Part shown: positions 20,128 through 22,381 of the stretch, piece after piece
Layout of the letters: every line of letters starts with the position of its first letter
Numbering within the stretch: position 1 is the first letter of the stretch
Made by a program: the position numbers and the translations under genes
Notes under the pieces: model-generated
Told to the model about the DNA's origin: nothing
Database searches by the model: none
The model's input: only the letters and a program-made list of their open reading frames with translations
Assembly: GCA_018304545.1 (NCBI GenBank)
Contig: JAGVVZ010000003.1
Coordinates: 123,402-187,401 of the forward strand
Length of the DNA stretch: 64,000 nt
Source of the DNA: Candidatus Aenigmatarchaeota archaeon
Lineage (GTDB): Archaea > Aenigmatarchaeota > Aenigmatarchaeia > CG10238-14
Reading direction: 5' to 3'

Positions 20128-20643
20128 CTAAATTATATTCACATGTGATTTCCTCATCTCATCAATAAAAAGTCTGTGCGTGGGTTGCATTATATTTGTT
20201 TTGAATTCGTTCTCCAACGAGGATATCATTTCAAAACCTTGAGCGTTCAATATCATGTCAATCATTTTCCTTCCAGACTTTTTAACAACACCTACATCAG
20301 GAGAGTATGTCTTTCCATATCTTGCCTCAACTAAAGCAATAATCTTGTCTATGTTACTAGCAACTATAGCTTTGTATCCCTCCAAAAATTTTAGTTGTGA
20401 TCTAGACAATTCTTTTCTAAATTCGTTTATTCTATTAACTAAATTTTTGTCGTCCCCTTTGATGAGTTGTCCGTCGCAATAATTCAATAAAAATTTCCTA
20501 GTGTCAAAAAGTTCAAGCGTGCTGACGCATAGGCCAATTGGTTTAATATCATGCATAGTTATAGTCATATCTACCACTAATATATTTGATATTTTAAAAA
20601 TATTAAAGTGTAAAGTGACTGATATGGCAATAAGACAACCCAT
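20128..20643 (-). CDS. Hypothetical protein, probable start internal (near MHDIKPIG)
   Basis: ORF track; annotated 5' end overlaps the aIF5B start. Confidence 0.5.
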   Translation of the reverse strand: MGCLIAISVTLHFNIFKISNILVVDMTITMHDIKPIGLCVSTLELFDTRKFLLNYCDGQLIKGDDKNLVNRINEFRKELSRSQLKFLEGYKAIVASNIDKIIALVEARYGKTYSPDVGVVKKSGRKMIDMILNAQGFEMISSLENEFKTNIMQPTHRLFIDEMRKSHVNII

Positions 20644-22381
20644 TGTGTCGGTCCTCGGACATTAGTCAATATCGAAGCTAACCGAAAATGTCGACCATGG
20701 GAAAACTAGTTTATTAGATTCAATTAGAGGTAGTGCTGTAAATCTCAGCGAACCTGGGAAAATAACGCAGCATATAGGGGCAAGCTTTGTACCCATAGAA
20801 AACGTCAAAAAAATATGCGGCAACTTACTAGAAAAATTCAACATTGACATAACTATCCCGGGTTTGTTGTTTGTAGATACACCTGGTCATGAAGCATTCA
20901 CTACACTAAGAAGAAGGGGTGGATCTGTGGCTGACCTTGCAATTCTTGTAATAGACATCAATGAGGGATTTCAACCACAAACAAATGAAAGCCTTAATTA
21001 TCTAAAACAATTTAAAACGCCCTTTGTAGTAGCTGCAACTAAAATCGACTTAATTCACGGATGGCATCAGAACAAAACGTCATGCTTTTTGGAAAGCTTT
21101 CAGAAACAAAATCCGAAGATACAAGATGAAACTGAAAGACAATTATATAATGTCGTATCTCAACTTGCAGAAAGAGAATTTGAATCAGAAAGATTCGATA
21201 GAATTTCAGACTTTAAGAAGCAAGTCGCTATCGTGCCATGTTCAGGAAGAACTGGAGAAGGTATTGCAGAATTACTTATGACCCTAGCTGGATTAGCACA
21301 GAGATTTTTAAAGGATAGGTTGACGTTGTCAAAAGACGGAAGAGGCACAGTTCTCGAAGTTAAGGAAGTAAAAGGATTGGGGACAACAATCGACGTTATT
21401 GTCTATGACGGAAGAGTAGAAGTCGGTAATTATATTGTAATTGGTGGGCAAAAACCACTGATAACCAAAATCAAGGCCTTACTCCGACCACCTGCATTAA
21501 AAGAATTAAGAGTAGAGAAGAAGTTTGACAGTGTGAAAGAAGTTCATGCTGCGGCGGGGATAAAGATTTCTGCTCCGGATTTAGAAAATGTAATTTCAGG
21601 GAGTCCCATAATTTTCGTTTCCTCTGAAAAAGACTTAGGAAGAGCTAAAGAAATGGTTCAAAAAGAAGTACAAATTGTCGATTTCAAGAAAGATGTCGAT
21701 GGTGTTATTGCTAAAGCTGACACGCTAGGCAGTTTGGAAGCTCTAATAAAAATTTTAAATGATAATGAAATACCAATTAAAAAGGCAGAGATTGGAAATG
21801 TCAATAAACAAGATGTTATAGAACTTACGGCTGGCAGCAGTGAAATCAGAAAAACTATTTTGTGTTTTAATGTTGATTTGCAACCCGAGGCAGAAATTTT
21901 AGTAAGAGAAGGCAAAATACCAATATTCAAAAGTAATATCATATACCGGATAATCGAAGACTACAAAAAATGGGTTTATGATAAAACAGAAAGAGAAAAA
22001 TCAGAGAAATTAGAATCTGTTATTAGACCGTGCAGAGTAAGGATAATTCCTGGTCTTGTTTTCAGAAAACATAAACCAGCTATTTTTGGCGCAGAGGTCA
22101 CTGAAGGTGTTTTGAAAGTTGGAACACCGATGAGTTTAGAAAATGGAAAGGATGTTGGAAAAGTTAAACAAATACAAAAAGACGGCAAGAATGTGGATAT
22201 GATTAGAACGGGAGATAAAGCCGCCATATCCATAGACGAACCAACTATTGGAAGACAAATAAATGAAGGTGACATACTAATTTCAGTTATGACATCACAT
22301 AATTTGAATTTAATAAAAGAGATATGGGATAAATTACAGGATGATGAAAAATCATTGCTTGCTAAATGGAAAGTGATTTAA
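20624..22381 (+). CDS. infB: Translation initiation factor aIF5B, interrupted by a 27-nt insertion within G1
   Basis: [13 protein letters not shown][TAG...AAT][14 protein letters not shown]...LLFVDTPGHEAF continuing in the same frame into ORF 20864..22381. Confidence 0.92.
20663..20689 (+). other. 27-nt in-frame insertion with TAG stop (candidate intron/untranslated gap)
   Basis: TAGTCAATATCGAAGCTAACCGAAAAT; removal gives GHVDHGKTS; boundary ambiguous by 2 nt (20661-20687 to 20663-20689). Confidence 0.7.

Follow-up and report, generated by a model that had tools for sequence, protein, structure and literature searches.

The window, the whole stretch of 64,000 nucleotides analyzed here, encodes aIF5B in infB on its forward strand, and the P-loop of this GTPase is split by 27 nt (GGAC^ATTAG...CCGAAA^ATGTCGAC, window positions 20661-20687, + strand). 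From the ATG at 20624, which has an in-frame GTG upstream at 20615, the frame runs for 13 codons to a TAG, resumes 27 nt further on and stays open to 22381. Unspliced infB reads ...LGH*SISKLTENVDHGKT, while removal of the 27 nt gives a contiguous GHVDHGKT. The ORF downstream is long and intact, with further alternative starts inside it. The parts of the gene are:

20624..20660, + strand: infB exon 1, opening at the ATG and ending with base 1 of the P-loop His codon
20661..20687, + strand: putative infB intron, 27 nt, ATTAGTCAATATCGAAGCTAACCGAAA, with the in-frame TAG inside; its borders are set from the bulge-helix-bulge (BHB) fold and from the regained GHVDHGKT
20688..22381, + strand: infB exon 2, stop codon included, from the ORF reading

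An earlier reading of the letters of the window, referred to below as the sequence-only reading, had described the in-frame TAG, the 27-nt excess and the recreation of GHVDHGKT upon its removal, all of which our frame reading confirmed. It had placed the insertion at 20663-20689, which yields a spliced product identical to that of 20661-20687, and had noted a 2-nt ambiguity (AT) of the junctions; the fold described below sets them at 20660^20661 and 20687^20688, within that range. No second infB copy was found in the window's genome (960 kb in 11 contigs, ~92% complete), where the gene is single-copy.

The insertion in related genomes

Comparison with related infB genes, as the sequence-only reading had suggested, revealed the same-site insertion in eight other genomes. 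In total, 9 of the ~80 Aenigmatarchaeota infB loci read are interrupted, at exactly one nucleotide position. Besides the window's genome, the carriers are six members of the same family, whose infB loci were read (G002, G006, G009, G011, G008 and G005), and two genomes found by a pattern search, one from another family of the same order (G026) and one from another family of the same class (G085); they span three families. In G026, infB was present as two fragments with an identical overlap, which thus represent one gene. The insertions are 27 (window), 30, 30, 29, 29, 24, 18, 20 and 32 nt long, and GHVDHGKT is regained upon removal in all nine. Since four of the nine lengths are not multiples of three and break the frame, a tolerated in-frame insert is excluded.

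The pattern TCGGACA-N8-38-CCGAAAATGT matched nine times in 156 genomes, every time at the same infB codon, and its reversed control gave no match over the same 156 genomes; the insertion pattern is well beyond chance. The other infB loci were read directly and had a contiguous GHVDHGKT wherever readable (the gene start was uncovered for a few), so the pattern search biased the census little. In-frame stops first reported for infB of G046 and G027 were absent on direct alignment.

Exon-1 nucleotides are unusually conserved among the intron-bearing genomes: TCGGACA is present in all nine of them, as against 1 of the 71 intron-less loci counted, although the Leu-Gly codons are free to vary. The intron interiors have diverged between genomes. 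Some of the eight other carriers were met a second time among separately deposited metagenome assemblies (JAHLMN010000010.1, JAHLMM010000002.1 and PFTQ01000036.1).

On the infB protein tree, the intron-bearing genes fall into a clade (g1+g3), the pair G005/G008, G026 and G085. The intron label needs four changes on this tree, and the starred branches force at least three. Either repeated loss from an ancestor that had the intron, the course described for cbf5 (PMC2738675), or repeated gain or transfer could have produced this distribution. The shared CCGAAA 3′ end favors a common origin; since CCGA is dictated by the exon TCGG, this sharing could also be convergence.

RNA fold, splicing enzymes and alternative explanations

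We computed minimum free energy (MFE) folds without constraints, together with ensemble pair probabilities, and assessed covariation against 500 shuffles. One BHB-like fold emerged for all nine infB transcripts, consisting of an exon helix, an internal loop, the 4-bp helix TCGG/CCGA, a 5′ ACA bulge and an intron hairpin. Its elements in the window are:

20639..20643 with 20697..20701, + strand: extension of the outer helix, CCCAT with ATGGG (MFE folds)
20647..20651, + strand: outer exon helix, 5′ arm GTCGG, pairing with 20691-20695 (MFE folds)
20655..20658, + strand: central helix, 5′ strand, exon TCGG, pairing with 20682-20685 (pair probabilities 0.95-0.99 here; invariant in 9 genomes)
20659..20661, + strand: 5′ bulge ACA, predicted cut 20660^20661 (MFE fold)
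20662..20666, + strand: inner helix, 5′ arm TTAGT, pairing with 20677-20681 (covarying)
20677..20681, + strand: inner helix, 3′ arm GCTAA (covarying)
20682..20685, + strand: central helix, 3′ strand, intron CCGA (pair probabilities; invariant in 9 genomes)
20686..20688, + strand: 3′ bulge nucleotides AAA within a 3x5 internal loop, predicted cut 20687^20688 (MFE fold)
20691..20695, + strand: outer exon helix, 3′ arm TCGAC (MFE fold)

The TCGG/CCGA helix shows no variation among the infB introns, has pair probabilities of 0.82-1.0 across the nine, and is accompanied in each by a 3-nt 5′ bulge (AC^A) with the cut after its second nucleotide. The inner helix does vary (UA/GC, AU/GC, GC/AU/GU and others), with two-sided changes at four of its five pairs. 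It is paired in 97.4% of cells, and its covariation score of 0.309 was reached by none of the 500 shuffles (0.127 +/- 0.036); sliding the partner strand in any register left only 13-44% pairing. The outer helix is also present, in a register that shifts between genera and genomes. On the 3′ side, AA^A lies inside the asymmetric 3x5 internal loop and not in a strict 3-nt bulge; as modeled, the infB BHB is of a relaxed type on this side. EndA is known to cleave after bulge nucleotide 2 (PMC2738675), and cutting at this place on both sides gives GGAC^ATTAG...CCGAAA^ATGTC, the very junctions that restore the protein.

These folds revise the sequence-only reading, which had found no clean BHB and had left the mechanism open; in the nine genomes the BHB-like fold arose unprompted. 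That reading had taken TTAG/CTAA as the central helix, which puts one cut in the wrong place, whereas TCGG/CCGA as the central and TTAGT/GCTAA as the inner helix put both cuts right. Thus, the BHB had been missed because the roles of the helices were swapped. The GACATT/AATGTC pairing that it had also proposed weakens in the relatives, where a T is lost and the last pair breaks; we rejected it as a conserved structure, as it reflects a near-palindrome at the spliced joint (GACAT^GTC) that decays in relatives.

The genome encodes the enzymes expected for such a substrate. Its single EndA gene (180 aa; L040:1264-1803, contig C10 of G000) aligns over its full length with Methanocaldococcus jannaschii EndA 1A79 (E = 1.7e-29). 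Relative to 1A79, six residues are inserted (...VKLKRGPKAPHEH...), and the insertion of the Nanoarchaeum equitans enzyme is equally long. Of 10 genomes checked, 9 had one EndA gene of 180-197 aa, and for the window's genome the single gene points to an alpha4-like architecture. An EndA without an auxiliary loop, as shown for the alpha′2 type, is reported to require canonical BHBs, and lysine-bearing auxiliary loops broaden specificity (PMC12397907). By analogy, the lysine-containing loop of the window-genome EndA may relax the need for a canonical BHB. RtcB is also encoded in this genome, by an uninterrupted rtcB, and in the stretches read ARAGORN called these tRNA genes with introns of 33-43 nt:

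L065:7573-7685: tRNA-Trp
L059:14056-14171: tRNA-Tyr
L060:15992-16113: tRNA-Ile
L065:3248-3354: tRNA-Thr

A tRNA-like gene with large insertions also lies near endA (L040:448-570, contig C10 of G000); it scored 20.5 bits against the Rfam tRNA model, below the cut-off, and probably contains at least two introns, in atypical places.

The site, the restoration of the motif, the frame-breaking lengths, the fold, the covariation and the presence of EndA, RtcB and tRNA introns together lead us to the reading that the infB insertion is, very probably, a short intron of an archaeal pre-mRNA that EndA excises and RtcB ligates; it resembles the crenarchaeal cbf5 intron, while its host gene, its phylum and the single-gene EndA are new. 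The relaxed 3′ junction, set against the reported preference for canonical BHBs, and the lack of variation in the central helix of the infB introns speak against this reading. We infer excision from comparison, and assign the enzymes by the cutting rule and by gene content. In the proposed mechanism, exon TCGG and intron CCGA would pair in the folded infB transcript, leaving the 5′ junction in an AC^A bulge and the 3′ junction in an AA^A bulge, separated by a small hairpin of the intron. The single alpha4-like EndA would then cut both bulges, and RtcB would join the exons into a contiguous GHVDHGKT P-loop. A very short mRNA intron cut by the tRNA splicing endonuclease was among the options of the sequence-only reading, and the comparison (nine genomes, fold and covariation) now strongly supports it.

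Removal of the RNA through the same hairpin by a route other than EndA, be it self-splicing or an unknown nuclease, is very unlikely. The 3′ junction, not being a strict 3-nt bulge, would suit such a route, but each cut lies precisely behind bulge nucleotide 2, the position used by EndA, and EndA and RtcB are both encoded. Group I and group II introns have a catalytic RNA core of a few hundred nucleotides, for which 18-32 nt is far too short, and an Rfam search of the infB intron matched no family; both types were rejected. An intein was rejected as well, as all nine inserts carry stops or shift the frame and none exceeds 32 nt.

Ribosome bypassing of an untranslated gap, of the T4 gene 60 type, would account for a stop directly after the last exon-1 codon and for a hairpin in the gap, and it could span gaps that are not multiples of three. 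However, bypassing requires matched take-off and landing codons, and here the take-off CAT is unmatched by the AAT before resumption; this mismatch, on which the sequence-only reading had based its view that bypassing fits poorly, was confirmed. Nor does bypassing need the conserved exon-intron pairing and the junction bulges. We know of no bypassing system in archaea and regard this explanation as highly improbable. Just as little probability attaches to a pseudogene, or to a truncated N-terminus with re-initiation past the insert. The intact downstream frame and the starts deeper within it would permit this, but losing the P-loop His and the N-terminus would disable an essential GTPase, and neither the conservation of exon-1 nucleotides nor the covarying inner helix fits with it. 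Least probable of all is an assembly error or strain variant, an option of the sequence-only reading to which a window from a single metagenome-derived assembly lends itself: the same insertion with diverged interiors in eight other genomes, several separately deposited, refutes it and rules out cross-contamination.

Relation to known archaeal introns

The cbf5 pre-mRNA introns of Crenarchaeota are 16-44 nt long, lie in the coding frame, have BHB-like borders and have been lost patchily among related species; the heterotetrameric EndA of Crenarchaeota has been linked to pre-mRNA splicing, and predicted introns in other genes are mentioned as unconfirmed (PMC2738675). The infB intron is likewise short, in the coding frame, BHB-like, cut after bulge nucleotide 2 and patchy in distribution. 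It differs in its host gene, in occurring in Aenigmatarchaeota with a single 180-aa EndA gene (alpha4-like) instead of a heterotetramer, and in interrupting a GTPase P-loop. With infB as host gene and one EndA gene, it does not belong to the cbf5 intron family by homology. It would work in the manner of the cbf5 intron; the genes, the phylum and the single-gene EndA are new.

With the BHB introns of archaeal tRNAs and rRNAs, the infB intron shares the 4-bp central helix, the bulge-defined cuts and the presence of EndA and RtcB, whereas its substrate is an mRNA, its outer helix is formed by coding exons and its 3′ bulge is relaxed. In Haloferax HVO_1309, too, EndA cleaves an mRNA at a BHB, but this BHB is in the 5′ UTR, outside the coding frame, and leaves the protein unchanged, unlike the infB intron, which lies in the coding frame; the same 2020 study named cbf5 as the sole archaeal gene with a described BHB mRNA intron besides its own 5′-UTR case (PMC7714728). 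Our search of open-access papers retrieved no report of BHB coding introns in infB, in line with the sequence-only reading, which knew of none in aIF5B, or in rtcB, described below.

A probable second host gene, rtcB, and the wider scan

A search for RtcB flagged genes with in-frame stops and excess length. In 11 genomes, the motif MPDGH^xGYGFPIGG is interrupted by an insertion of 21-32 nt (frame-breaking in 5 of the 11) that begins immediately behind the conserved His. The loci are BHB-like, and removal of the insertion restores the motif:

L078 (G026): rtcB, first site
L100-L106 (G132, G057, G052, G046, G117, G112, G016): rtcB, first site
L189-L191 (G025, G077, G114): rtcB, first site

The geometry comprises a 5′ bulge A[CT]^W and a central helix of 3-4 bp, GGYC with GRCA or GGCT, in which GCC/GGC and GTC/GAC covary and G-U intermediates are present. 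The hairpin differs in sequence in nearly every genome, and only 0-3 of 300 shuffles were as stable. A second site lies inside GGIGF-D-NCG in G047 (L099), G046 (L103), G112 (L105) and G016 (L106), with insertions of 30-33 nt and similar hairpin folds; both sites are occupied in the last three genomes. The rtcB introns share phylum and geometry with the infB intron and likewise hit a catalytic motif, in another gene and with another central-helix sequence. This independent set supports the intron reading of infB and, as judged from the sequences, indicates that BHB introns in coding frames characterize the Aenigmatarchaeota.

With the infB and rtcB introns, archaeal pre-mRNA splicing would reach new genes, a new lineage (a DPANN phylum) and a new EndA architecture. 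Such introns also mislead gene callers, which shorten or overlook essential genes in Aenigmatarchaeota. The patchy spread at active-site codons makes tests of intron origin, movement and loss possible, and an intron within the gene of the ligase needed for its own removal poses a testable question of feedback. It is conceivable, though we consider it rather unlikely, that BHB introns in the active-site codons of infB and rtcB act as self-referential feedback sensors, such that RtcB and aIF5B synthesis would depend on splicing capacity; the simplest view is that of a tolerated element.

The sequence-only reading had also suggested scanning the rest of the genome for similar insertions. Over ~359 kb (contigs C10 and C11, window included), a scan for a BHB with frame restoration did return 41 fold-supported candidates, but nearly all had short upstream frames and were chance-like, and comparison backed infB alone. 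When 784 predicted genes from G000 and G002 were compared by tblastn with one another and with stretches of G016 and G026, the only gene to stand out was rtcB. A frameshift in an endonuclease III-like gene (L112:19441-20000, contig C2 of G016) was rejected as an intron; it stems from a 26-nt tandem duplication, which looks like a mutation or assembly artefact.

Short insertions at or near the same rtcB motifs were also seen in G059 (L188), G147 (L192), G150 (L193), G063 (L194) and G035 (L195); a different RtcB subfamily (LPDMHWG...GLPMGA) occurs among these five, and one insertion is ~16 nt. In G003, G054, G092, G105, G108, G110, G126 and others, rtcB frames are ~830-1020 aa long, and their match to the profile is interrupted around position 47-49. 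These probably contain inteins at or near the second rtcB intron site, so that introns and inteins of rtcB appear to use common insertion sites.
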